A stretch of 48,314 nucleotides of DNA, taken from Nitrospirota bacterium. Lineage in GTDB: Bacteria; Nitrospirota; Thermodesulfovibrionia; Thermodesulfovibrionales; JdFR-88. Made by a program: the position numbers and the translations under genes. The stretch lies in contig JAJYIR010000019.1 of the NCBI GenBank assembly GCA_021789935.1, positions 1-48,314 of the forward strand, given 5' to 3'. Each line of letters begins with the position of its first letter. Positions within the stretch are counted from its first letter, which is position 1. Shown here one piece after another: positions 8,649-23,946 of the stretch. Below the pieces are notes generated by a model. It was not told the origin of the DNA. It was given only the letters and a program-made list of their open reading frames with translations, and did no database searches.

Positions 8649-9572
8649 TTACCAGAGCTGGGGGCCGCCGTATAGGGAATAGCGGAAGTGCCCGTCTATC
8701 GTTAGGCTCTTTTTGTGCCAGGAGGTGGGCAGGGGCCAGTAAGGCACACCGTCCCTGAGCGCCTGCACCGCGGCTTCATCCAGGATGGGATAACCGGAAC
8801 CGCGCACTACCTCCACACCGGCAAGCGTGCCATCCTTATTTATGGTAAAACTTATCTCCAGGTCTCCCTGGAGCCTGCGCTCCTGGGCTTGGCTTGGATA
8901 TTTCCAGATGCTCTCTATCTTTATCCTGAGAAGCCTCATGTAGCCGAAATACTTGGAATCCGCCGCGTCGAATGTTATGCCGTTTTTCGTTGAACCGGTT
9001 TTTTTACGGTGCAGATCGTTTTGGGCCACCTGTTCCGTGATGCCCGGATCAAAGAGGTTCGGCACTACCAATCTTGTGCCCGGCTTTTTGTTCCCGTTAA
9101 AGGAAGGGTTTCTTTTACCCGAATAACCGGGCCCCCTTGTAATTGGAAGGTTTTTTTCAATCGGCGTCTTACTGCCCCCGCCCTTTTCCCCGCGAATGGG
9201 CGATTTGGCGGCAAGTGAGACTGGCTTGCGGGCTGAAGACCGGTTTTTCACCGTTTTTTTCGTTGTCCTGGGTGGACCCTGTGCCAGGCCGCCATGGATG
9301 CGCATTTTCTTGAGCTCCTCCCGGGTAAGCCTTGGCAGGTGCATTATCCTTGAAGCAGGACTTTTTTGTTTTCTTGGTTTTACAATTTTTGGCCTTGGCT
9401 TTGCAACCAGCGGCGGGGTCAGCCGCTTCAGCTCCTGCGGCGTTACGAGGGTCGCAACCATGGGAGCCTCCGGCTTTTTTTGCCTGTTTTTCATTGTCAA
9501 AAGGGCAGCCAGCAGCATGATGTGCAGAAGAATGGAAATTATTAGAAATTTTGAAAAAGAAGAAAAATTCAA
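8649..9572 (-). CDS. TonB-family energy transducer (TonB/TolA C-terminal domain)
   Basis: A 307-residue periplasm-spanning protein. It has one N-terminal membrane anchor (about residues 8-27), a long basic Pro/Lys/Arg-rich linker (about 30-180), and a C-terminal TonB-type domain beginning near YMRLLRIKIESIWKYP, with GDLEISFTINKDG and a final beta region. TonB proteins pass proton-motive force from ExbBD to outer-membrane receptors. No exbB, exbD or receptor gene is present here, so the partner is unknown. The start is a TTG overlapping the TGA stop of the preceding reductase gene (TTGA), which points to translational coupling. A TolA-like role is the alternative. Confidence 0.8.
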   Translation of the reverse strand: MNFSSFSKFLIISILLHIMLLAALLTMKNRQKKPEAPMVATLVTPQELKRLTPPLVAKPRPKIVKPRKQKSPASRIMHLPRLTREELKKMRIHGGLAQGPPRTTKKTVKNRSSARKPVSLAAKSPIRGEKGGGSKTPIEKNLPITRGPGYSGKRNPSFNGNKKPGTRLVVPNLFDPGITEQVAQNDLHRKKTGSTKNGITFDAADSKYFGYMRLLRIKIESIWKYPSQAQERRLQGDLEISFTINKDGTLAGVEVVRGSGYPILDEAAVQALRDGVPYWPLPTSWHKKSLTIDGHFRYSLYGGPQLW

Positions 9573-10705
9573 AACAGCACGCGTTTCCTTAGCACGTTGA
9601 TGAAAGAGGCCAGAGTGCCTCTGCCCGAGGTTTTATCAAGCCAGAGTTTTATCCCCATCTGCTGCACCCGCTCATCCCTGAAAGCGGAAATAAGCGCTTC
9701 CGTGCCAGCTTCCGTTGTAAGAAATATCCTCCATAAGCCCTTCATGAGAAGAAACCTGGAGCGGAACCTCTGCCGCCATAATTTCCCGTAAAGCCCGAGG
9801 TCCCCTTCCGCGATGGCCTGGGCCGCGAGCTGTCCGGCCCGCATGGCATAATAAATACCCTCGAAGGTAAACGGCATTACAAGGCCTGCCGAATCCCCGG
9901 CGAAAAGCACCTTTTCCTTTTCCCGGACAAGCGGCTGCCCCTCCCAAAGAGGTATCCTGTAACCCCGGGGGCCAGGCGCCGCCGCCGCTTCAGGGGGCAC
10001 GCCTTTTTCCGACAGCAGCCGCTCATATGCCGGTTTCAGCTTTCTGGGGTCTGTGCTCCCGGTGCCGGCGGACACGCTTGCCCCGCCCGGGAATATCCAG
10101 GAATAGCCCCCAGTGGCGAAACGGCCGAAATAAAATTCACAACTGTTTCCCATCGTGCCTCCGGCCGGCAGTTTCGCGCCCAGGGTATAAAGGCTGGCCA
10201 TTGGCTTCATGCCAAGCGCGGTCCTTACCCTGGAGTTCACCCCGTCGGCCGCTATTACAAGTTCCGAGCGGACCTCAAGACGTTCTCCGCCGCTGACGGC
10301 CTCGCAGACAATGTGATCATCGCAGCGCCCGTTTTCCGGGGGCAGAAAGCACAAAAACTCGCCGTCCAGGAGCCGGGCCCCCTGCGCCTGTGCCATCTCC
10401 CTTAAAGCTGAGTCGAACTCCTGCCGCTCCACAATCCCTATGTATCCCGACTGGAAGCATATCTCAAAGGGGGTGCTTTTGGGCGGAGACACCCTCAGGG
10501 CGCAAACCTTCTTTTTTATGAGGTTTTCGGGCAGTTGCAGCTCTTCGAAGGCCCCGCACGGTATGCCCCCGCCGCAGGGCTTGGTGCGCCGCGGGTGCCT
10601 CTCCAGGATTATGCAGTCCACACCGCTTGCGGCCAGGAACCTGCCCGCGGTCGCACCGGCGGGCCCCCCACCGACTATGAGCACCCTTGTCTCTAAAAAG
10701 TTCAT
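9569..10705 (-). CDS. Geranylgeranyl reductase-family FAD-dependent oxidoreductase
   Basis: A flavoprotein of about 378 residues from the ATG at 10705. The N terminus has the Rossmann FAD motif VLIVGGGPAGATAG, followed by an E-R pair (LERHPRRTKPCGGGIP) with the Cys-Gly-Gly-Gly typical of this family. A second FAD motif, VLFAGDSAGLVMPFTFEGI, lies in the middle. Family members saturate isoprenoid chains of chlorophyll, archaeal lipids or menaquinone. Menaquinone side-chain reduction would suit a quinone-based respirer, but that is inference. An upstream in-frame ATG at 10798 would add 31 residues without family character. The stop codon overlaps the start of the tonB-like gene. Confidence 0.8.
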   Translation of the reverse strand: MNFLETRVLIVGGGPAGATAGRFLAASGVDCIILERHPRRTKPCGGGIPCGAFEELQLPENLIKKKVCALRVSPPKSTPFEICFQSGYIGIVERQEFDSALREMAQAQGARLLDGEFLCFLPPENGRCDDHIVCEAVSGGERLEVRSELVIAADGVNSRVRTALGMKPMASLYTLGAKLPAGGTMGNSCEFYFGRFATGGYSWIFPGGASVSAGTGSTDPRKLKPAYERLLSEKGVPPEAAAAPGPRGYRIPLWEGQPLVREKEKVLFAGDSAGLVMPFTFEGIYYAMRAGQLAAQAIAEGDLGLYGKLWRQRFRSRFLLMKGLWRIFLTTEAGTEALISAFRDERVQQMGIKLWLDKTSGRGTLASFINVLRKRVLF

Positions 10706-10759
10706 TTCTGGAAAAACAAAAAAACAAAATTTCCCACGCCAGTGAGAGTTTCGTCTTTT

Positions 10760-10765
10760 ATTATA
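10760..10765 (-). promoter_or_regulatory. Candidate -10 box for the geranylgeranyl reductase gene
   Basis: A perfect minus-strand TATAAT lies about 55 bases before the ATG. No good -35 is found at 16-18 bases, so an activator or an unusual -35 would be needed. Confidence 0.3.
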
Positions 10766-10893
10766 ACCTGTATGGCTTTCTGTGAAGCAGCAAGACAATG
10801 TAAAGAATTGTAAAGGTAGAAAAAAATCCGGTAGTTTAAAAAAATGTTATGGGAACGCGCAGCGGTCCCTCCGCGTGATACTCTCTGCCCATT

Positions 10894-11439
10894 TTATTCC
10901 ATGGCCGGGGGGAAAGGACAGTGGATGCGGGCCTTCCGCGGGTCCGATGTGCCGTTTAGGTAATAGGCGGCTATCTTGAAAAAATAGCGCCCAATGCTGC
11001 CCGATATGGTCCCGTCCTTGTTTTCCGCCCAGTTCATTGTCTTGGTGTTGTTGTTGATGGCTATGATCAGATAAACGTGATTGGTCTTCATGCTTTGTAT
11101 GTCTTCCGGGCTGGGCACTGGTCTTCCCTTGAAATCTCCATACTGGGTATGGGAGTGGTAGTCGCCAACTATGCGGAGCTTATTGAATTTTTCAAGGATC
11201 GGCTCTATTTTTTTCTGATAGATCTTTCTCAGGTCCACGGCACGGTGCCTGCGGTTGGCGCTCTGCAGATTGAAGGCATGCTCCACGATGAAGCGGTCCT
11301 CGAGGTCATAACCCAGAAGATAACCCAGGCACTCTTTTTTGTAGACCTCCGCCGAACTAAGCAGAAGGTCCATGAAAGCAGCTTCGGAAAGATAAACCCT
11401 CAAAAAAATCCAGTCGCCTCCCCAAAAAGTTTTTTGCAT
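10894..11439 (-). CDS. JAB/MPN (JAMM) domain metalloprotease-like protein
   Basis: This 181-residue protein has the elements of a JAMM zinc metallopeptidase: a Glu in KKECLGYLLG (E36), then YHSH (H95, H97) and SPED (S110, D113). In many JAMM proteins seven residues separate the second His from the Ser; here twelve do (TQYGDFKGRPVP). Bacterial JAB proteins act in sulfur-carrier processing, peptide trimming or unknown roles. No ThiS/MoaD-like or E1-like gene is adjacent, so the substrate is unknown. It is the third gene after coaX and the galT-like gene, 55 bases downstream of the latter. AGGA lies five bases before the ATG. Confidence 0.75.
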   Translation of the reverse strand: MQKTFWGGDWIFLRVYLSEAAFMDLLLSSAEVYKKECLGYLLGYDLEDRFIVEHAFNLQSANRRHRAVDLRKIYQKKIEPILEKFNKLRIVGDYHSHTQYGDFKGRPVPSPEDIQSMKTNHVYLIIAINNNTKTMNWAENKDGTISGSIGRYFFKIAAYYLNGTSDPRKARIHCPFPPAME

Positions 11440-11494
11440 TTTGTCCTGCCGCTTTTATCCTTAAAACAAAAAAACACAAAACACTTTTACGCCT

Positions 11495-12544
11495 TTACGC
11501 CTCCCTGAGGTATCTGGCCGCGTCTTCCGGGGATGTCGTGATCACGTGAAAGCCCGCTCCCAGGTCCATGGCGGACATCCTTTGCAGCCTGGGCAGGACT
11601 TCTACATGCCAGTGGTAGTCGTCCCCAAGGGTGTGCCAGAGGTTTCTGCGGGGGATCCTGTTGGGGGCGGTATGGATGTAGTAATTATAAGCGGTGCCGC
11701 CAAGCGCCCTGGACATCTTTCCTAAAAGTTCGGGAAGGAGCCCGGAGAGGTCTTCCATTTCAGGCACGCTTATCTCTTCAAACGCGCAGGAATGTCTTTT
11801 TGGGGCTATCCAGAACTCAAAAGGCATTCTCGGGGCGTACGGGCAGAAGGCCAGGAAATGCCCGGTTTCAGCCAGCACCCGGCTGCCCGCCTTCTTTTCC
11901 TCATTTATTATATCGCAGAAGATGCAGCGCTCCTTGCCTTCATAATAGTGTTTAGCGCCGTCGAGCTCCCTTTTTATGAAATCGGGTATGACGGCCGTGG
12001 CGAGTATCTCGGAGTATGGGCGGCCCGGGAAGGCTGTTTTATTTTTTTTGTCTTTTTCGGCCGAGAAAGAAAAAGGGGAAAGCCCCTTGTCCTTGAATAT
12101 GAACACATAACGTATGCGCGGGTCCCGCATAAGCGCACGGAACCTTTTCAGGTATATGTCCAGCACAGCCAGGAAATGCCTGGAATCCAGGCCTGCCGGA
12201 TCCTCCGCCCCTCCCTGGTGGTCTTCCCCGGCTTCTATCACCACCTCATGCATTCCTATGGGGTTCATCTTGTCGTAAATGCCCTCTCCTTTTCTCCCCA
12301 GGTCGCCTTCCGCGGCAAGCATGGGCATGCCCCTTATCACTTTTGTCCCGTTTTGGCCTTGTTCGATGATGGAAGAAAGGTCTTCTTTTGACGCCGGAGC
12401 GCGGTCCCCGCAAAACTCGAGGGAAGCCGGGTCTGCAACGGCGGGAAATGCGGCCAAGGGGGCATAATATTCGGCGGGTTTAAGGGACCTCTCCAGTATC
12501 ACCGCCCATCTGGACAGAAGAGGGTCTTTTCTCAGTTCGTGCAT
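11495..12544 (-). CDS. GalT-family nucleotidyltransferase-like protein with altered active site
   Basis: The 349-residue protein has the two-HIT-fold architecture of galactose-1-phosphate uridylyltransferases. CIFCDIINEE (207-216) starts the second half, and DDYHWHVEVLPRL (308-320) matches the conserved C-terminal HWH motif. The first-half nucleophile motif, normally HPHSQ, aligns to RPYSE (175-179), so the catalytic His is a Tyr. The N-terminal zinc site, normally CPFC, keeps only one Cys (EFCGDR). A Lys-rich insert (EKDKKNKTAF, 163-172) lies just before the altered motif. It may therefore be inactive or catalyse another reaction. It sits six bases after coaX, so the two are surely co-transcribed. 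Confidence 0.7.
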   Translation of the reverse strand: MHELRKDPLLSRWAVILERSLKPAEYYAPLAAFPAVADPASLEFCGDRAPASKEDLSSIIEQGQNGTKVIRGMPMLAAEGDLGRKGEGIYDKMNPIGMHEVVIEAGEDHQGGAEDPAGLDSRHFLAVLDIYLKRFRALMRDPRIRYVFIFKDKGLSPFSFSAEKDKKNKTAFPGRPYSEILATAVIPDFIKRELDGAKHYYEGKERCIFCDIINEEKKAGSRVLAETGHFLAFCPYAPRMPFEFWIAPKRHSCAFEEISVPEMEDLSGLLPELLGKMSRALGGTAYNYYIHTAPNRIPRRNLWHTLGDDYHWHVEVLPRLQRMSAMDLGAGFHVITTSPEDAARYLREA

Positions 12545-12550
12545 TTCGTC

Positions 12551-13414
12551 TTAAAGGGCTGCCAGGCAGATGCGCCTTACGCCTTTTAGCGCCAGAGCCG
12601 GCTCATGAAAGTCCAGCCTTTTTAAATATGGCGCGATAAGGCCGGCGTATCCCCCGGTCAGCGCGATTTTGAATTTTTCAAGCCGCAAGAGTTCAGCCTC
12701 CTCGATGATCCTCGATATGGCCCCCACCGTACCGTATATAATGCCGGACAGGATGGAGCCGCTGGTGTTTGTGCCTATTGCCAGCCGCGGTTTTTTTTGT
12801 TCCACGGCCAGATCCACGTAAGGAAGCGCCGCCGTTCCGCTTTGAAGGCTGTCGCGCATCAGGCCCAGCCCCGGCATTATGGCTCCGCCCAGGAAAAGCC
12901 CGTCCGCCGTTATGAAATTAAGCGTTGTGGCCGTTCCTGTGTCCACCACGCAGACCGGACCGCCGTACATCTTCCACGCCCCATAGCCTGACGCTATGCG
13001 GTCCGCCCCCAGGGCCGAGGGGTTTTCCACATCGAACCTCATGCCTGCGGCGGTTTTATGATTGATGATCACGGGTTTTTCTTCTTGCGTTGCCTTTTTT
13101 GCCTTTTCCGCTTTTTCGCCCCCGTATTTTTCAAGCATCAGCTCGATCAGCTCCAGGAAGACATCATTATGGGAGGGCACAACGGAACATAGCGCGCCCA
13201 TATGAGGGCGGGTGGCCATGCCGGCCCTTCCGTCCCGCTCAAGTTGTTCCCCGATGCCAAGCTTCTCAATCACGTCCTCCAGCTCCCGGAAGTATTCCCG
13301 CGCGCTTTCAAGCGGGTGGGTGGGGAACCGGTGAATAAAAGGCTCCTCCCCGCCGGGCTGGAAAAAAAAGCCCGCCTGGGTGGATGAATTTCCTATGTTC
13401 ACGGCCAGCAGCAT
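12551..13414 (-). CDS. coaX: Type III pantothenate kinase
   Basis: Catalyses the first step of coenzyme A synthesis. From the ATG at 13414 (after GGAAACCAGG) the protein has about 287 residues. Family motifs are the N-terminal phosphate loop MLLAVNIGNSSTQAGF, GADRIASGYGAW with the catalytic Asp, VVDTGTATTLNFI, and GGAIMPGL. The Asp usual at position 6 (DxGNT) is Asn here, and a Lys/Glu-rich insert (about residues 95-115) interrupts the region before the pantothenate-binding segment. An upstream in-frame start at 13453 would add 13 residues absent from the family. It is divergent from rdgB and leads the coaX-galT-like-JAMM set. Confidence 0.88.
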   Translation of the reverse strand: MLLAVNIGNSSTQAGFFFQPGGEEPFIHRFPTHPLESAREYFRELEDVIEKLGIGEQLERDGRAGMATRPHMGALCSVVPSHNDVFLELIELMLEKYGGEKAEKAKKATQEEKPVIINHKTAAGMRFDVENPSALGADRIASGYGAWKMYGGPVCVVDTGTATTLNFITADGLFLGGAIMPGLGLMRDSLQSGTAALPYVDLAVEQKKPRLAIGTNTSGSILSGIIYGTVGAISRIIEEAELLRLEKFKIALTGGYAGLIAPYLKRLDFHEPALALKGVRRICLAAL

Positions 13415-15090: not shown

Positions 15091-15137
15091 ACAGAAAAAA
15101 AGGAAAAGAAAAATCTTTGGAAGGAGGCAAGTGAAAA

Positions 15138-16352
15138 ATGGCACTGGTAAATCCCCACGGCAAAGATAAAAAATTAAAACCCCTGCTACTTGAAGGGGCC
15201 GCCCTGGAGGCTGAAAAAAAGAAGGCCCAGACGCTGACCCAGGTGAGGATAACCTCCCGCGAGGCGGGTGACCTCATCATGATGGGAATAGGCGGGTTCA
15301 CCCCGCTTACCGGTTTTATGACCCATGGCGACTGGAAGGGTGTTTGCGACAAGTTCACGATGGCGGACGGAACGTTCTGGCCCATCCCGATTACGGTTTC
15401 GACCACCCAGGGGCAGGCAGATAGCATAAAGGACGGCGAAGAAGTGGCCCTTGTTTCCGAGGAGACCGGAGAGGCGATGGCTACCATGAAGGTCACCGAG
15501 AAGTACAAGATAGACAAGGAGCACGAGTGCAAGAGCGTCTATGGCACGACGGACATGGAGCACCCCGGCGTGGCGATGGTTATGAAGCAGGCTGACGTAA
15601 ACCTGGCCGGACCGGTAAAGGTGCTCTCCGAGGGCAGCTTCCCCAAGGAATATCCCGCCCTCTTCGTGAGGCCCTCCGAATCAAGAAAGATGTTCGAGGA
15701 AAAGGGCTGGTCCACGGTGGCGGCGTTCCAGACCAGGAACCCCATGCACCGTTCCCATGAGTACCTGACCAAGATTGCAATAGAGACCTGCGACGGCGTC
15801 TTCATACACATGCTGCTTGGCAAGCTGAAGCCGGGCGACATACCGTCTGATACAAGGCAGAAGGCGATTGACACCCTTATAGACAAATACTACGTGAAAG
15901 ACACGGTCGATGTCGGCGGTTATCCGCTGGACATGAGATACGCGGGCCCCAGGGAGGCCCTGCTGCACGCCCTCTTCAGGCAGAACTACGGCTGCAGCCA
16001 TCTTATAGTGGGAAGGGACCACGCGGGTGTGGGCGACTACTACGGTCCGTTTGACGCGCAGAAGATATTCGACCAGATACCTGCGGGCGCCCTTGAGACA
16101 AAGCCGCTCAAGATAGACTGGACTTTCTATTGCAAGAAGTGCGACGGCATGGCTTCCATGAAGACCTGCCCGCACGGCAAGGAAGACAGGCTCATACTCA
16201 GCGGTACCAAGCTAAGGAAGATGCTTTCCGAAGGCGACGAGGTGCCGGACCATTTCTCCAGGCCGGAAGTGCTTGAGATACTCCGCGCCTATTATGCGGG
16301 TCTTACTGAGAAGGTGGAGATAAAGACGCACAAGTATTCGGAAGGCGCATAA
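15138..16352 (+). CDS. sat: Sulfate adenylyltransferase (ATP sulfurylase)
   Basis: Activates sulfate with ATP to APS and PPi, the first step of dissimilatory sulfate reduction. The 404-residue cytoplasmic enzyme shows [10 protein letters not shown] (198-207) and [13 protein letters not shown] (292-304) of the nucleotidyltransferase fold, LSGTKLR (354-360), and a zinc-site pattern C332, C335, C344, H346. AAGGAGG precedes the ATG. The fungal/plant APS-kinase fusion is absent. It is followed by aprBA after 102 bases that contain two hairpins. The neighbourhood (apr, qmo, pyrophosphatase) shows the dissimilatory role. Confidence 0.97.
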
Positions 16353-16363
16353 AGGTTGTAAGG

Positions 16364-16385
16364 GTTTCCTTTTAAAAGCGGAAAC
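16364..16385 (+). other. Hairpin 1 in the sat-aprB gap
   Basis: GTTTCC and GGAAAC pair around a ten-base loop, and a run of eight T follows 18-20 bases later. It could attenuate transcription or mark an RNA-processing site between sat and aprBA. Confidence 0.4.
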
Positions 16386-16413
16386 AGTTTGCTGATTTGT
16401 TTTTTTTAAATTA

Positions 16414-16434
16414 TTTCCGCCCATAGGGCGGGAA
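16414..16434 (+). other. Hairpin 2 upstream of the aprB ribosome site
   Basis: CCGCCC and GGGCGG form six G-C pairs around an ATA loop, extended by T-A and T-G pairs. The stem ends about seven bases before AAGGAGG of aprB. A stable stem just upstream of an open ribosome site may stabilise the aprBA message. Confidence 0.4.
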
Positions 16435-16454
16435 CATTAAGAAGGAGGTCTGCT

Positions 16455-16895
16455 ATGCCTAGTTTCGTGATTACCGAGAAGTGCGATGGCTGCAAGGCAC
16501 AGGACAAAACCGCCTGCCAGTACATCTGCCCCAACGACCTCATGAAGCTGGATCGGGACAAGATGAAAGCTTTCAATCAGGAGCCCGAACAGTGCTGGGA
16601 GTGCTACAACTGCGTAAAGATTTGCCCCCAGCAGGCAATTGAGGTAAGGGGTTATGCCGACTTTGTGCCGCTTGGAGGCAGCGTTATCCCGATGAGGGGT
16701 TCCGACTCCATCATGTGGACGATCAAATTCCGTAACGGGAAACTGAAGAGGTTCAAGTTCCCCATCAGGACCACCCCCGAAGGCTCCGTAAACCCTTACG
16801 GCGGCGAGCCCGAGGCGAACATCGACAATATCAAGAAGCCGGGCTACTTCACCCATCACGGGGCGGGCAAATCTGTGTCCACCCTGAAGAAGTAG
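16455..16895 (+). CDS. aprB: Adenylylsulfate reductase, beta subunit
   Basis: Iron-sulfur subunit of APS reductase that passes electrons to the FAD of AprA. The 146 residues carry eight Cys for two [4Fe-4S] clusters: C10, C13, C21, C25 and C47, C50, C53, C57. The C-terminal tail (GYFTHHGAGKSVSTLKK) is the type that wraps AprA. AAGGAGG lies before the ATG, and aprA starts 18 bases after the stop. Cytoplasmic; partner QmoABC is encoded 2.3 kb downstream. Confidence 0.97.
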   Translation: MPSFVITEKCDGCKAQDKTACQYICPNDLMKLDRDKMKAFNQEPEQCWECYNCVKICPQQAIEVRGYADFVPLGGSVIPMRGSDSIMWTIKFRNGKLKRFKFPIRTTPEGSVNPYGGEPEANIDNIKKPGYFTHHGAGKSVSTLKK

Positions 16896-16913
16896 GAAAG
16901 GAGATAGGAAACA

Positions 16914-18872
16914 ATGGAAAAAGAAACCTGTACATTTTCTTATTGCCAGAGGCCTGAGGTCGTAACCATCGAAACCGACCTCCTCATCGTGGGCGGCGGC
17001 ATGTCGGCTTGCGGAGCGGCATTCGAGGCCACCAGGTGGGCGCAGGCGGCGGAGAAGGCCGGCAAAGGCAAGATAAAGATCACACTCGTTGACAAGGCCG
17101 CCATGGACCGCTCCGGCGCCGTGGCAATGGGCCTTTCGGCCATCAACACCTACATGGGCGAGCAAGACCCGGCCGATTACGTAAGAATGGTAAAGGGCGA
17201 CCTGATGGGCATCATCAGGGAGGACCTCGTTTATGACCTGGGCAGACATGTCGACGATTCAGTGGAGCACTTCGAGGAATGGGGTCTTCCCATATGGAAG
17301 AAGGACGAGTCCGGCCACACCATGGACGGCGCAGGCGGCGGCAAGAAGCTCAAGGATGGCGGTAAACCGGTCCGGTCCGGCAAATGGCAGATAATGATAA
17401 ACGGCGAGTCCTACAAGGTCATTGTGGCGGAAGCCGCGAAGAAGGCCCTTGGCCTCGAGAACATATATGAGAGGGTTTTCATAACCAAGTACGTACTTGA
17501 CGAGAAGGAAGACAACCGCATCGCGGGCGCCATCGGCTTTTCCGTCAGGGAGAACAAGGTTTATCTCTTCAAGACCAACGTTCTGCTTTCCGGCTGCGGC
17601 GGCGCGGTCAACGTCTTCAGGCCCAGGTCGGTCGCTGAAGGCCAGGGCAGGGCGTGGTACCCCGTATGGAACTCCGGTTCCGGCTACGCCACGGGCGCAA
17701 TGGTCGGCGCCGAGATGACCATGATGGAAAACAGGTTCGTGCCGGCCAGGTTCAAGGATGGTTACGGCCCGGTTGGCGCATGGTTCCTTTTCTTCAAGGC
17801 CAAGGCCACCAACGCCTTTGGTGAGGACTATTGCGCGGGCGAGAACTTCGAGGAAGCAAAGAGGCTCTACAGCCCCTATGCCGAGAAGCTTGGCACCTGC
17901 ATACGTAACCATATGATGATGATGGACATGAAGAAGGGCAAAGGGCCCATCCTCATGAACACGGACAAGGCCATGGCGGAGCTTGCCAAGACCATGGACG
18001 CAAAACAGATAAAGCACCTCGAAGCCGAGGCCTGGGAAGACTTTCTTGACATGGCAATCGGACAGGCCGGCGTATGGGCGGGCATGGACATAGAGCCCGA
18101 CAAAAAGCCTTCGGAGATCATGCCGACGGAGCCTTATCTGCTCGGTTCCCACGCGGGCTGCGCGGGCTTCTGGGTGAGCGGCCCGAATGACCTTGGCGCT
18201 CCCGCCGACTGGCACTGGGGTTACAACAGGATGTCCACCGTCCAGGGCCTTTTCATGATGGGCGACATCTGCGGCGCCTCCGGCCACAAGTTCTCTTCCG
18301 GCTCCCATGCGGAAGGGCGTATCGCCGGTAAAGAGGGTATTTCCTTCATCCTGGACCACAAGGACTTCAAGCCCACCATAAGCAAACCGGCTGACGAGAT
18401 GACGGCCGAGATGTACCTGCCGTTTGAGGTATATGAGAAATACAAGAACCACTCGACCGCGCCTGAGATAAACCCTTATTACATCAAGCCCAAGATGCTT
18501 CAGGCAAGGCTTCAGAAGATAGCGGACGAGTACTTTGGCGGCGTTTCCACCTACTATATGACCAGCAAGACCCTTCTGGAAGAGGGACTCAGGCAGCTTG
18601 CCCTCCTCAAGGAAGACGCGGCAAAGACCGGGGCCAAGGACCTCCACGAGCTCCTGAGGGCCTGGGAGAACTATCACAGGATATGGGCCCTCGAGACCCA
18701 TGCAAGGCATATCCTCTACAGAGAAGAGACCAGGTACCCCGGCTACTATTACAGGGGCGACTTCCTGGCCATCGATGACAAGAACTGGAAGTGCTTCGTC
18801 AACTCCAGGTTCGACCCGAAGACCGGCCAGTGGAGCGTCTTCAAGAGGGAACACGTACAACTCGTAGACTGA
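16914..18872 (+). CDS. aprA: Adenylylsulfate reductase, alpha subunit
   Basis: FAD-containing catalytic subunit that reduces APS to sulfite and AMP. The 652-residue protein belongs to the fumarate reductase/succinate dehydrogenase flavoprotein family. It has the FAD motif LLIVGGGMSACGAA near residue 25, DRSGAVAMGLSAINTYMG near 65, SGCGGAVNVF, SHAGCAGFWVSG near 410, and GDICGASGHKFSSGSHAEG near 450. The length is usual for AprA. It directly follows aprB and ends before a strong terminator, so sat-aprB-aprA (perhaps with adk) form one transcription unit. Confidence 0.97.
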   Translation: MEKETCTFSYCQRPEVVTIETDLLIVGGGMSACGAAFEATRWAQAAEKAGKGKIKITLVDKAAMDRSGAVAMGLSAINTYMGEQDPADYVRMVKGDLMGIIREDLVYDLGRHVDDSVEHFEEWGLPIWKKDESGHTMDGAGGGKKLKDGGKPVRSGKWQIMINGESYKVIVAEAAKKALGLENIYERVFITKYVLDEKEDNRIAGAIGFSVRENKVYLFKTNVLLSGCGGAVNVFRPRSVAEGQGRAWYPVWNSGSGYATGAMVGAEMTMMENRFVPARFKDGYGPVGAWFLFFKAKATNAFGEDYCAGENFEEAKRLYSPYAEKLGTCIRNHMMMMDMKKGKGPILMNTDKAMAELAKTMDAKQIKHLEAEAWEDFLDMAIGQAGVWAGMDIEPDKKPSEIMPTEPYLLGSHAGCAGFWVSGPNDLGAPADWHWGYNRMSTVQGLFMMGDICGASGHKFSSGSHAEGRIAGKEGISFILDHKDFKPTISKPADEMTAEMYLPFEVYEKYKNHSTAPEINPYYIKPKMLQARLQKIADEYFGGVSTYYMTSKTLLEEGLRQLALLKEDAAKTGAKDLHELLRAWENYHRIWALETHARHILYREETRYPGYYYRGDFLAIDDKNWKCFVNSRFDPKTGQWSVFKREHVQLVD

Positions 18873-18919
18873 TAAGAAAGACGCAAAGTTTTTTATAAAA
18901 AAAGGTTTTAAGAGTAAAG

Positions 18920-18958
18920 AGCGGGGGGCATAAGAAAAATGCCCCCCGCTTTATATGT
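18920..18958 (+). terminator. Strong rho-independent terminator after aprA
   Basis: A perfect 12-bp stem, AGCGGGGGGCAT with ATGCCCCCCGCT, closes a seven-base loop AAGAAAA and is followed by a T-rich tail. It separates sat-aprBA from qmoABC. Confidence 0.9.
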
Positions 18959-18968
18959 TTATAAATTA

Positions 18969-18998
18969 TTGCTATTTCCATTCCGGCCTCCATATAAG
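18969..18998 (+). promoter_or_regulatory. Candidate qmoABC promoter
   Basis: TTGCTA (18969-18974) and TATAAG (18993-18998) are separated by 18 bases and lie just after the aprA terminator. A second AT-rich hexamer, TATATT, lies at 19000-19005. Some promoter is required here because the terminator isolates qmo from apr. Confidence 0.4.
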
Positions 18999-19004
18999 TT
19001 ATAT

Positions 19005-19203
19005 TCTAGTGTTACTGTCTGAGCCAATGGCTCCTCCGGCGGATTTTGATTTGCCGGGGCGGCGCGGTCTGCCGGCGGACTGCGAGCATGAGAATGAAAA
19101 CGATTGATTTAAATAATTTTTCCTTGCTCTGCGGCCCTACCGCCGCGTCAGGGTGCTTTTGCGTGGATTTTTGACCGTTTGATTCTAAGGAGGTTCCGCA
19201 AAG
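19005..19203 (+). other. Long structured leader before qmoA
   Basis: About 200 bases between the candidate promoter and the qmoA ATG hold no supported gene. They contain a GAGCC-AAT-GGCTC hairpin (19021-19033), CCGGC/GCCGG arms (19036-19040 and 19053-19057), and a GC-rich patch to about 19085. AAGGAGG lies 11 bases before the ATG. The structure could be regulatory RNA, but no known riboswitch class was recognised. Confidence 0.4.
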
Positions 19204-20475
19204 ATGGCTGAACAATGTATCCTCGTCATAGGGGGCGGCATAAGCGGGCTTACGGCAGCGATAGAGGCCGCCGAGGCCGGCTACGATGTCTGCATCGTGG
19301 AGAAAAACCCGTATCTCGGTGGGAGGGTGGCCCAGCTTAACAAGTATTTCCCTAAACTTTGTCCCCCGGTGTGCGGTCTGGAGATCAATTACCGAAGGAT
19401 AAAGGAAAACGCCAAGGTGAAATTCTACACCATGGCCCAGGTGGAGTCGGTTACAGCCAGGGAGGGCTCATACGATGTGACCGTGAAGGTGGCCCCCCGC
19501 TATATTAATGACAGGTGCGTGTCCTGCGACGCATGCGCGCAGGCCTGCCCGGCGGAAAGACAGGACGACTTCAACTTCGGGATGAGCAAAACGACGGCAG
19601 CCTACCTGCCTTTCGACCAGGCATACCCGATGAGATACGTTATTGACGCGGCAAACTGTAAGGACGGTTGCATGCAGAAGTGCAAGGAAGCCTGCAAGTA
19701 CGGGGCGGTCGAGTTGGACATGAAGCCCGAGACGGTAAAGATAAATGCCTCGGCCATAGTGGTCGCCACCGGCTGGGACCCTTATGATATCTCGAAGGCG
19801 GACAACCTCGGGATGGGCAAGGTCAAAAACGTTATTACCAATATGATGATGGAGCGGCTGGCGGCCCCGAACGGCCCCACGGCGGGCAGGATACTGCGCC
19901 CGTCGGACGGCAAGGAGCCTAAAAAAGTCGCTTTCGTCCAGTGCGCCGGCTCCAGGGATGAAAACCATCTGTCTTATTGTTCATACATATGCTGCATGGC
20001 CTCCCTTAAGCAGACCACCTATCTGAAGGAACAGTATCCGGACGCCACGGCGGACATATTCTACATAGACATCAGGACCCCGGGCAGGTATGAGAAGTTC
20101 TACTGGAAGGTAAGGGATATGGAAGGGGTGAGTTTCACCAAGGGCAAGGTGGCCAGGGTGGAAAACACCGAGGGGGACGATGTGCTGGTGACCCTGGAGG
20201 ACGTCCTTTCAGGGAAAAAGGTCCGCATGGCATTTGATATGGTGGTTCTGGCGGCCGGAATGCAGTCCGCCACGAGGCAAAACCCCCTTCAGCTCGGCAT
20301 AAACTATACGGCCGAGGGGATGATAGTGCCTTCCAGCCTCAAGCCCGGCATATATGCGGTAGGCTCTTCCAAGAGCCCCGTGGATGTGGCAAAGTCCGTT
20401 CAGGACGCCACTGGGGCGGCCCTGAGGTCCATCCAGAGCGCGATAAAGCTTCTTCCCGCGGGAGGTATCAGGTAA
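19204..20475 (+). CDS. qmoA: QmoA, quinone-interacting oxidoreductase HdrA-like subunit
   Basis: Soluble flavoprotein subunit of the Qmo complex, which moves electrons from reduced quinone to APS reductase. The 423 residues show the FAD motif VIGGGISGLTAA (8-19), an HdrA-type segment GGRVAQLNKYFPKLCPPVCG, and a [4Fe-4S] motif C105, C108, C111, C115 (CVSCDACAQACP). A second Cys group follows near CKDGCMQKCKEAC. It is shorter than methanogen HdrA, as usual for QmoA. The qmoB ATG directly follows its stop codon, so translation is coupled. Confidence 0.94.
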   Translation: MAEQCILVIGGGISGLTAAIEAAEAGYDVCIVEKNPYLGGRVAQLNKYFPKLCPPVCGLEINYRRIKENAKVKFYTMAQVESVTAREGSYDVTVKVAPRYINDRCVSCDACAQACPAERQDDFNFGMSKTTAAYLPFDQAYPMRYVIDAANCKDGCMQKCKEACKYGAVELDMKPETVKINASAIVVATGWDPYDISKADNLGMGKVKNVITNMMMERLAAPNGPTAGRILRPSDGKEPKKVAFVQCAGSRDENHLSYCSYICCMASLKQTTYLKEQYPDATADIFYIDIRTPGRYEKFYWKVRDMEGVSFTKGKVARVENTEGDDVLVTLEDVLSGKKVRMAFDMVVLAAGMQSATRQNPLQLGINYTAEGMIVPSSLKPGIYAVGSSKSPVDVAKSVQDATGAALRSIQSAIKLLPAGGIR

Positions 20476-22713
20476 ATGGAAAAGAAATACGGCGTATACA
20501 TATGCAAGGGGTGCGGCATCGGGGAGTCCGTGGATGTGCAGAAGATGATCGACGAGACCGCCTCGGCCACAAGGCTGCCCAAAGAGAATTTCAAATCGCA
20601 TGATGCCCTGTGCAGTCCCGAGGGCATTGCCATGATAAATGCCGACATAAAGAATGACGGAATAAACGCCCTTAACATAGTGGCCTGCTCACAGCGCAGC
20701 AAGGTGGAGGAATTCGATTTTCCAGGATGCGTGATGGCCAGGTCCAACATAAGGGAACTCGTTGCCTGGTCGATGCCGGCTATGGAGGAGTCCACTCAGA
20801 TAAATGCCAGGGACTACGCCATCATGGGCGTTATCAAGATACAGAAAGGCGACCTTCCGGAACCGGGCATACTGGAAAACCTGAACAGGACCATCCTCGT
20901 GATAGGCGGCGGGATGACCGGCCTTTCGGCGGCCCTTGAGGCCGCAAGGGCGGGTTATGAAGTCGCGCTTGTGGAAAAGGAGGCCCAGCTTGGCGGGTGG
21001 GGTGCGAAGATATTCAAGTCCAGCCCCATGAGTTATCCTTTCGAGGGGCTCATTGACTCCCCCGTGCATGCCAGAATAAAGGACGTCCAGGCCGAATCCA
21101 GGATCAAAGTTTATACCGGCACTACCATACAGAAGATTGACGGACAACCCGGGCTTTACGACGTTACGCTGAACACCCCGGGCGGCGAGGAGACCATAAA
21201 GGCCGGGGCCGTTGTGCTTGCGGCCGGCTGGAAGCCGTATGACGCAACGAAGCTCACCCATCTTGGTTACGGCCTTCCTAACGTGGTGACCAGCGTGGAG
21301 TTCGAGGAGATGGCCAAAAAAGGCGGCATTACAAGGCCCTCCGACGGCAAACCCGCAAAGAAAGTTGCGTTCATCCAGTGCGCCGGCTCCAGGGACCCTG
21401 AGCACCTTCCATACTGCTCCCATTTCTGCTGCTCCACTTCCCTGAAGCAGGCAAAGTATGTAAGGGAGCTGGGCGGGGATGACGCCCTTGCGATGATCTT
21501 CTACAAGGACATAAGGACGCCCGGCCAGACGGAGCTTTTCTACAAGAACATGCAAAACGACCCAGGCGTCATGCTGACAAAGGGCGATGTAAAGGGCGTT
21601 TCGGAGGCCGGAAGCGGCAACCTGTATGTGGAGGCGGAAAACACCCTGCTTGGCCAGAATGTGAAGGCGCTGGCGGACCTGGTGGTGCTGGCCGTAGGCA
21701 TCGTGCCTGCCACTGCCGGCCATCAGCAGTATCTCGACGGGCTGGCGGCCGCCGGTTCAAAAGGCGATGAGGCGAAGGCAAAATACATAGAGGAGACCCT
21801 GAAGCCGGAATTTATCCTCAACCTGGGCTACAAGCAGGGCCCGGAGATACCCTCGATGGAGGGAGGCTTCGGGTTTGCGGACTCGAACTTCCTGTGCTTC
21901 CAGTACGAGACCAGGCGGACGGGCATATACGCCGCCGGCTGTGTCAGGCAGCCGATGACGATGGCAGAGGCGGCGGAGGACGCCGCAGGCGCGGCCATGA
22001 AGGCGGCCCAGGTGATAGAGCATGTTGCCAAGGGCATGGCAGTGCACCCCAGGGCATGGGATATCACGTTTCCAGACCCCATGATGACGCGGTGCACTTC
22101 CTGTAAAAGGTGCACCGAGGAATGCCCGTTTGGCGCGATCGACGAAGACGCCAAGGGTACGCCCTTCTACAAGATAAACCGTTGCAGAAGGTGCGGCACC
22201 TGCATGGGCGCCTGCCCTGAGAGGATAGTGTCCTTCAAGGACTATCATGTGGACATGATAGGCTCCATGATAAAGTCCGTTGAAGTCCCCGATGAAGGGC
22301 TGAGGATAATCGTCCTGGCCTGCGAGAACGACGCCTATGCGGCGCTCGATACCGTTGGCATCAGAAGGAAACAGAAGCTGAACCCGTCAGTCAGGATACT
22401 GCCTGTAAGATGCCTGGGCTCCACTAACCTGGTCTGGGTGGCTGACGCCTTCTCCAGGGGCATTGACGGCCTTCTGCTTCTGGGCTGCAAGTTCGGCGAA
22501 GACTACCAGTGCCATTTCATAAAGGGCAGCGAGCTGGCCAGCTACCGCTTCAGCAAGGTGCAGGAGACCTTAAACAGACTGCAGCTTGAAGCTGAAAGGT
22601 GCAAGATGGAGCAGGTAGGCATAGATGATTACTCCAGGCTGCCGGAGATAATCGATGATTTCGTCAAGAACGTGGAAGACCAGCTGGGCCCCAATCCGTT
22701 CAAGGGCTTTTAA
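20476..22713 (+). CDS. qmoB: QmoB, HdrA-like flavoprotein with MvhD-like domain
   Basis: Second soluble subunit of Qmo. The 745-residue protein starts KKYGVYICKGCGIGE, has an FAD motif VIGGGMTGLSAALEAA near 145, a conserved FIQCAGSRDPEHLPYCS near 300, and two C-terminal four-Cys cluster motifs (CTSCKRCTEECP from C540, then CRRCGTCMGACP). The last 150 residues resemble MvhD, the small [2Fe-2S] electron carrier of hydrogenase-heterodisulfide reductase systems, with RCLGSTNLVWVADAFSRG. This fusion is typical of QmoB. It lies flush against qmoA and 69 bases before qmoC. Confidence 0.94.
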   Translation: MEKKYGVYICKGCGIGESVDVQKMIDETASATRLPKENFKSHDALCSPEGIAMINADIKNDGINALNIVACSQRSKVEEFDFPGCVMARSNIRELVAWSMPAMEESTQINARDYAIMGVIKIQKGDLPEPGILENLNRTILVIGGGMTGLSAALEAARAGYEVALVEKEAQLGGWGAKIFKSSPMSYPFEGLIDSPVHARIKDVQAESRIKVYTGTTIQKIDGQPGLYDVTLNTPGGEETIKAGAVVLAAGWKPYDATKLTHLGYGLPNVVTSVEFEEMAKKGGITRPSDGKPAKKVAFIQCAGSRDPEHLPYCSHFCCSTSLKQAKYVRELGGDDALAMIFYKDIRTPGQTELFYKNMQNDPGVMLTKGDVKGVSEAGSGNLYVEAENTLLGQNVKALADLVVLAVGIVPATAGHQQYLDGLAAAGSKGDEAKAKYIEETLKPEFILNLGYKQGPEIPSMEGGFGFADSNFLCFQYETRRTGIYAAGCVRQPMTMAEAAEDAAGAAMKAAQVIEHVAKGMAVHPRAWDITFPDPMMTRCTSCKRCTEECPFGAIDEDAKGTPFYKINRCRRCGTCMGACPERIVSFKDYHVDMIGSMIKSVEVPDEGLRIIVLACENDAYAALDTVGIRRKQKLNPSVRILPVRCLGSTNLVWVADAFSRGIDGLLLLGCKFGEDYQCHFIKGSELASYRFSKVQETLNRLQLEAERCKMEQVGIDDYSRLPEIIDDFVKNVEDQLGPNPFKGF

Positions 22714-22782
22714 TTAATTAGTCCGAAGGATTGCGCGTAAGGAAGCCAGCTTCAGGGTTTTTAAGATAAAGGAGGACTTAAA

Positions 22783-23946
22783 ATGAGCGAAAGGATACTT
22801 AATCCGGACCTCGGGTTTGTAAAAGAGGTAATAAAATCCGGCGGCGAGTCACTCAAGAAGTGCTACCAGTGCGCTACCTGTTCGGTGGTCTGCAACGTAA
22901 CGCCGGACGAAAATCCCTTCCCCAGGAAGGAGATGATACAGGCGCAGTGGGGCCTGAAGGACGAGCTTTTCAGGAACCCCGATATCTGGCTATGCCACCA
23001 ATGCAGCGACTGCACAGCTTATTGTCCGCGCGGCGCGAAGCCCGGAGAGGTCCTTAACGCGATCCGGAAGATGAGTCTGCAGGAGTTCTCGGTGCCTGGG
23101 TTCCTTGCCAGGATGGTGAATCAGCCTGTGTTCCTTCTGCTGCTGTTGGCCGTGCCCCTGGCGGCGCTTCTGGCCTCAGGCGCGGGGCACGTTCCTGCGG
23201 GACCCGTTGAATTCGGAAAGCCGGGAGGGTTCCTTTTTTCGCTCAAATACATAGATCCCCTGTTTACCAGTGTTGCGGTGCTCGCGCTTTTGAGCCTCTT
23301 CCTCGGAATACGGAAATACTGGAGCGCGATGTCCGAGGGCCAGTCCTCGTCCGGCAAATCCCCGGCCACGGATATCTCCCTTGGTACCGCCATCAAGGAG
23401 ACCGTCAAGGAGATACTTGCGCATAAACGCTTTGACAAATGCGAGACCACAAAGGGCAGGTCCACGGCGCACAAACTTGTGTTCTACAGCTTCATTGGCC
23501 TGTTCATAACGACGGTGCTTGCCTTCGGGAAAGTGATCCTGGAGCCCAATGGCGGATATCTCGCCTATCTTGGGCATCCCGTGAACGTAAGCGCCTCACT
23601 CCTTACGGGTCTCGTGGTTGTTTACAAGATAATCGGCAACATAAGCGCGGCGGCGCTGATAATCGGCATTCTACTTGTGATGGGCAACAGGATGAAAAAC
23701 GCGAAAAAGGCGGGTTTGGGCAGTTACTACGACTGGCTGTTCATATCCCTTGTCGCGGGTCTGGGAATAACAGGCCTTCTTGCCGAGCTTTTAAGGGTCG
23801 GCAACATGCCGGCCGCTTATCCGGTTTACGTGGTTCACCTCTGCTTCGTATTCTTCCTTTTCGCCTATGCGCCATTTTCGAAGATGGCCCACATGTTCTA
23901 CCGCGCCACTGCCATGGTCTTCGAAAAGAAGTCTGGAAAGGCATAG
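22783..23946 (+). CDS. qmoC: QmoC, membrane quinone-interacting subunit
   Basis: Membrane anchor of Qmo that oxidises menaquinol. The N-terminal half carries two cluster motifs, C27, C30, C33, C37 (CYQCATCSVVC) and C71, C74, C77, C81 (CHQCSDCTAYC), like HdrC. The C-terminal half has about six hydrophobic segments (first near residue 109) with His residues suited to heme b, like HdrE/NarI. The 387-residue length matches this HdrC-HdrE fusion. GGAGG lies before the ATG. No terminator was seen between it and hppA, so read-through is possible. Confidence 0.94.
   Translation: MSERILNPDLGFVKEVIKSGGESLKKCYQCATCSVVCNVTPDENPFPRKEMIQAQWGLKDELFRNPDIWLCHQCSDCTAYCPRGAKPGEVLNAIRKMSLQEFSVPGFLARMVNQPVFLLLLLAVPLAALLASGAGHVPAGPVEFGKPGGFLFSLKYIDPLFTSVAVLALLSLFLGIRKYWSAMSEGQSSSGKSPATDISLGTAIKETVKEILAHKRFDKCETTKGRSTAHKLVFYSFIGLFITTVLAFGKVILEPNGGYLAYLGHPVNVSASLLTGLVVVYKIIGNISAAALIIGILLVMGNRMKNAKKAGLGSYYDWLFISLVAGLGITGLLAELLRVGNMPAAYPVYVVHLCFVFFLFAYAPFSKMAHMFYRATAMVFEKKSGKA

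Follow-up and report, generated by a model that had tools for sequence, protein, structure and literature searches.

The uridylyltransferase GalT is the textbook case of ping-pong catalysis and depends on a single nucleophile, as its double displacement needs His166 as acceptor of UMP (PMC5081055). In the E. coli enzyme, the residues matching the C-terminal His/Glu set hold a structural metal (iron), and human GALT has lost the N-terminal zinc site, yet is active (PMC5081055). Changes at the nucleophile that leave the fold intact have been made in the laboratory, as in 6k9z (HPF at the motif) and 2h39 (HSG), both recognised by sequence, and in the H112N mutant of Hint1; 2h39 contains bound ADP-glucose, and Hint1 H112N binds AMP approximately 150-fold tighter (PMC12375108). 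The change described here is of the same type, but is natural, recurrent and long-lived. Neither a coaX-galT linkage nor a nucleophile-less GalT was found described in the open-access literature, a scope outside which most subscription journals fall.

A GalT-like gene with an altered catalytic motif

The window analysed, a stretch of 48,314 nt, originates from a 2.47 Mb draft genome in 60 contigs (G000) of the order Thermodesulfovibrionales (Nitrospirota). It contains the following gene, with its features given in the order of the protein:

11495–12544, minus strand: GalT2, a GalT/ADP-glucose-phosphorylase-like gene that lost its nucleophile (349-aa ORF; match to 1z84, E 3e-38, and fold match, Z 31.8)
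12410–12421, minus strand: LEFC, residues 42-45, remnant of the CxxC zinc site with Cys42 replaced by Leu and C45 retained (alignment)
12029–12079, minus strand: residues 156-172, a charged low-confidence loop replacing the short G-x-x-AGAS substrate loop (alignment; pLDDT <50 at 156-165)
12014–12022, minus strand: Arg175-Pro176-Tyr177 (CGC CCA TAC), where the family has His-x-His (codons and alignments)
11915–11926, minus strand: C207-I-F-C210, predicted C-terminal HIT-like metal site, invariant in GalT2 and canonical GalT
11786–11794, minus strand: H251 (in PKRH) and C253, the latter a GalT2-specific invariant (sequence conservation)
11672–11674, minus strand: H291, counterpart of the E. coli GalT iron ligand His281 (alignment; PMC5081055)
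11627–11638, minus strand: W303-H304-T305-L306, a GalT2-specific insert adjoining the HWH motif (W/H/T in 100% of GalT2 and in no canonical GalT)
11600–11614, minus strand: H311-W-H313-V-E315, the C-terminal HIT-type motif, invariant across GalT2

The initial annotation had read RPYSE in place of HPHSQ, which was confirmed by the codons (CGC CCA TAC, followed by TCC GAG for Ser-Glu, versus HxHSQ in the family) and by alignment, as RPYSE aligned unaided with HSHSQ of Arabidopsis ADP-glucose phosphorylase (1z84) and HPHSQ of 6k5z, and a profile of 52 relatives reproduced this register for RPY, against E. coli GalT as well as 1z84 and 6k5z. The HxH motif with its second His as UMP acceptor, which defines the uridylyltransferases, is therefore RPY at residues 175-177; no other His aligned at the nucleophile position, the C-terminal HWH being a separate and equally old motif. 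A single transition for each His, as first suggested, fits the codons of the same genus (CAC CCC CAT in G001 and CAT CCG CAC in G002), and the frame was indeed open throughout, with HWHVEV retained at the C-terminal end and the CPFC zinc site reduced to one Cys. The N-terminal zinc ligands (Cys/Cys/His/His) read L42, C45, H99 and R175, and here the earlier reasoning needs refinement, as the loss of this site is by itself weak evidence and not decisive, given that human GALT stays active without it (PMC5081055).

Similarity over the whole length in both sequence and fold places the protein in the GalT/ADP-glucose phosphorylase family of tandem HIT-like proteins, with 1z84/1zwj as closest solved folds, followed by GalT; curated cut-offs were missed for GalP_UDP_tr_C (27 bits vs 29.2), PRK11720 (63.4 vs 448) and galT_1 (48.5 vs 102.1). 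ADP-glucose phosphorylase At5g18200 (1z84, 2h39) matches over its full length (E as above; rmsd 2.7 over 287 residues) and likewise has a CxxC in both halves, but it has the HSH nucleophile motif, reads HWF at the C-terminal motif and has no counterpart of the GalT2 insert. GalT (E. coli 1hxp/1gup, human 5in3) shares the fold, the counterparts of Glu182 and His281 and the HWH, whereas its nucleophile His166 is Tyr in the window protein, and its zinc ligands Cys52 and His164 are replaced. The candidate C-terminal metal ligands (Glu/His/His/His) are present as E193, H291, H311 and H313; in the alignment E193 and H291 correspond to the iron ligands Glu182 and His281 of E. coli GalT, and HWH matches its remaining two His ligands.

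The AlphaFold2 model of the window protein had a mean pLDDT of 81, with the C-terminal half mostly >90, and the low-confidence loops (39-55, 77-94 and 156-165; N-terminal loops <50) carry the zinc site and the substrate loops. The model of a relative from family f13 (L062, HPA at the motif) had a mean pLDDT of 90 and no segment <50. Proteins of families f10 and f13 thus resemble complete GalT folds carrying a substitution at the reactive residue, whereas the window genus has eroded further.

Conserved gene neighbourhood of GalT2

The start codon of GalT2 lies six bases (12545-12550) from the coaX stop, as reported initially, and the flanking genes were as follows:

12551–13414, minus strand: coaX, encoding a type III pantothenate kinase, immediately upstream, with the start set at MLLAVNIGNSS (Pan_kinase, E 1.6e-41)
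10894–11439, minus strand: JAB/MPN metalloprotease-like protein, next downstream (Prok-JAB, E 4.7e-9; conserved neighbour)
9569–10798, minus strand: FAD-dependent oxidoreductase, geranylgeranyl-reductase-like (conserved neighbour)
8649–9572, minus strand: TonB-like protein (conserved neighbour; TonB_C on the L055 homologue)

The usual order in 44 loci of Thermodesulfovibrionales is nth, birA, coaX, GalT2, universal stress protein, JAB, FAD reductase and TonB-like protein, and coaX adjoins GalT2 in 39/44. In the window genus, the universal stress protein gene usually found between GalT2 and JAB is missing (11440-11494 in the window). This gene order shows GalT2 to be inherited in place, and is no evidence on its function. 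Long open frames suggestive of a CoaX-GalT2 fusion in G009 and G048 were rejected as such, since coaX uses another frame. A sulfate-reduction cluster (sat, aprBA and qmo-like, with ORFs read by eye) is located at 15135-23943, a few kb from GalT2.

Distribution of nucleophile loss

GalT2 forms a separate paralogue group (60 rows, 100/100 support), and the window genome has a second copy, the canonical GalT1, on another contig (C14:125370-126344). GalT1 has ~37-38% identity to GalT2 and retains HWHIE, but differs in having HSHSQ intact, in a N-terminal half at least as conserved as the C-terminal half, and in lacking the WHT insert; HxH is kept in GalT1 of 30/30 genomes checked among those whose GalT2 has lost the nucleophile. 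In a census of 107 genomes of Thermodesulfovibrionales, the nucleophile was missing in 43/106 readable GalT2 genes, so the change first noted in the window gene stands but is not unique to it, recurring across the coaX-linked paralogue group. The second His was gone in all 25 GalT2 of family f13 (replaced by V, I, L or A), in 15/17 of f10 (V, L, I or T), in 2/6 of f1 (the RPY/GPY pair) and in 1/6 with a readable motif in f4 (HPY), and it was kept in all GalT2 of f2, f6, f7, f8, f11 and f12. Since HxH is kept in more than half of the GalT2 genes, the group may originally have had a catalytic role. GalT2 is missing from many genomes of the order, including all of several families and half of f1, and the gene is therefore dispensable. 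A search for viral GalT2 copies found none.

Within the window genus, G001 and G002 have HPH, G000 has RPY and the sister species G003 has GPY (GGG CCG TAC), the Tyr thus being common to two independent assemblies. Trees built without the motif columns place the losses in f10/f13 and in the window genus as separate lineages. An independent HPY was seen in a different family, f4 (L121, G037:C31), in a fragment at a contig end that was excluded from the trees and is counted as third loss from its motif. Two sequences of genus g66 (L150 and L161, from G117 and G118) read HPHSL inside the nucleophile-less f10 clade, with HPVSL in their relative L020. Monophyly of the nucleophile-less f10/f13 sequences was rejected (AU test, p = 0.004), as g66 nests within f10, although the test is weakened by the f12 row L113, whose long branch was also placed between those two families in that tree. 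The g66 pattern suggests that the catalytic His was either regained once or lost several times.

Other variants were also detected. GalT2 of G009 (L005/L034) reads RLHSE, with the first His and the CxxC lost and the second His retained; this region seems disrupted, perhaps with frameshifts that compensate each other. The 98% complete genome G050 (L117) has a GalT2 with HPL and no detectable GalT1, leaving a strict obligate pairing of GalT2 with GalT1 unsupported, with the proviso that drafts may miss genes.

Selection and location of constraint

GalT2 is under purifying selection, with dN/dS of 0.125 (G000 vs G003) and 0.23 (G000 vs G002), similar to the values in the same pairs for coaX (0.15 and 0.18) and the FAD reductase (0.17 and 0.16) and above that of GalT1 (0.043, against G003 only), all of these being rough because some pairs approach saturation at synonymous sites. 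With the fold under selection and an essential catalytic residue lost, GalT2 of the window would qualify as a pseudoenzyme. The C-terminal half is under tighter constraint (dN/dS 0.07-0.12) than the N-terminal half (0.18-0.34). In a paired control of 28 genomes that combine GalT1 with a GalT2 lacking the nucleophile, mean identity in the N- and C-terminal halves was 0.856 and 0.845, respectively, for GalT1, and 0.672 and 0.768 for GalT2, with C-half identity above N-half identity in 373/378 GalT2 pairs, which share ancestry and are not independent.

The residues C207, C210, H251, H291, H311, H313 and E315 are conserved in all GalT2 sequences long enough to include them, and E193 in all but one fragment. 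Residues gained in GalT2 and absent from the canonical proteins (C253, E262, W303-H304-T305 and D309, in 100%, rounded, of 102 sequences) are mainly located in the C-terminal half, and lost canonical residues mainly in the N-terminal half; the window genus has also lost the family-invariant C42, W65, H175, P184, G325, F326 and E327. Judged from these comparisons, constraint in GalT2 is shifted from the N-terminal to the C-terminal half.

Possible function of GalT2

On balance, we favour the view that the ancestral N-terminal site of GalT2 has become dispensable, and that the protein is maintained in a non-covalent role, binding via its C-terminal HIT-like metal domain. GalT2 would then be a vertically inherited paralogue of GalT/ADP-glucose-phosphorylase type. 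The GalT double displacement cannot run because the nucleotide-accepting His is gone; no nucleotidyl-His intermediate would be formed, and hence no GalT-type ping-pong transfer would take place. With the catalytic His lost here and, by separate events, in many relatives of the same order, and with the other half intact and carrying new fixed residues, the window protein has probably ceased to act as a transferase. Given that selection continues and constraint lies on the C-terminal domain, a non-covalent mode is most likely, and the missing chemistry makes binding the most likely way of working: a dimeric, metal-bound C-terminal domain may bind a nucleotide-type ligand or else a partner protein, which would serve the birA-coaX-JAB neighbourhood. 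Hint1 H112N and the ADP-glucose-bound 2h39 are precedents for binding by a protein with a changed nucleophile. In the f10/f13 clade (42 sequences), most of the remaining pocket is preserved, and the old site could still accommodate a ligand, whereas in the window genus the N-terminal pocket is eroded as well. The initial suggestion, of a protein repurposed for binding or transfer and not acting as a uridylyltransferase, is supported as a broad reading, since the nucleophile and its partner His have been lost together with some of the nucleotide face and selection continues.

More tentatively, GalT2 may represent an unrecognised tandem-HIT group whose working site left the N-terminal HIT domain for the C-terminal one, where C253, W303-H304-T305 and D309 would form a new Cys/His/Asp signature beside the old metal site. 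It would serve either the linked JAB protein or, with birA and coaX, cofactor metabolism, and the ancestral nucleophile would then have been lost in several separate lineages.

It is also conceivable, but rather doubtful, that catalysis itself has moved, with H313 of HWHVE performing HIT-type nucleotide chemistry together with H304, C253 and D309, and the N-terminal site a relic. H313 is at the HIT nucleophile position, HWHVE (versus the HxHxH-type motif of HIT proteins) is invariant with new invariants beside it, residues 208-349 match FHIT (Z 8.6), and the C-terminal half matches HIT proteins of the order (hhalign probability 96%, E 1.8e-9), but that alignment stops before HWH. Furthermore, the same motif is invariant in GalT1, which works through its N-terminal site, and the corresponding residues of E. 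coli GalT hold a structural metal (PMC5081055).

We consider it unlikely that GalT2 is redundant with GalT1 and decaying under relaxed selection, the loss of the nucleophile being a step towards gene loss. The absences from several families and half of f1, the faster evolving N-terminal half and the family-invariant residues lost in the window genus would fit such decay, but the frame is intact in nearly all copies, dN/dS is like that of coaX, the C-terminal half is strongly constrained, and f10/f13 retain the nucleophile-less gene in 40 sequences from >20 genera.

Tyrosine can carry nucleotides in other enzymes, and HPY recurs independently in G037, yet survival of the transferase with another acceptor, such as Tyr177 or Glu179, is very improbable: the f10/f13 residue is V, I, L, A or T, unable to act like His, E179 is G in G002 and variable elsewhere, and the nucleotide face is predicted to be disordered in the window protein. 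A sequencing or assembly error in this 60-contig draft, raised initially together with HPH relatives, hardly merits consideration, as such relatives do exist but G003 independently has PY at the same site, neighbouring divergence is ordinary and the loss recurs in orthologues, which refutes an error at Tyr177.

GalT2 constitutes a natural group that has lost its nucleophile in several lineages, in a fixed neighbourhood and under selection, and its close pairs with and without the His provide test cases for the transition from enzyme to binding protein. Genes labelled galT in Nitrospirota genomes may not encode uridylyltransferases. Nucleophile-less copies also occur outside GalT2, as one of the 47 canonical sequences examined from outside the order, a canonical-type GalT in a Nitrospinota MAG (L084:5001-5990), reads HSNSQ.
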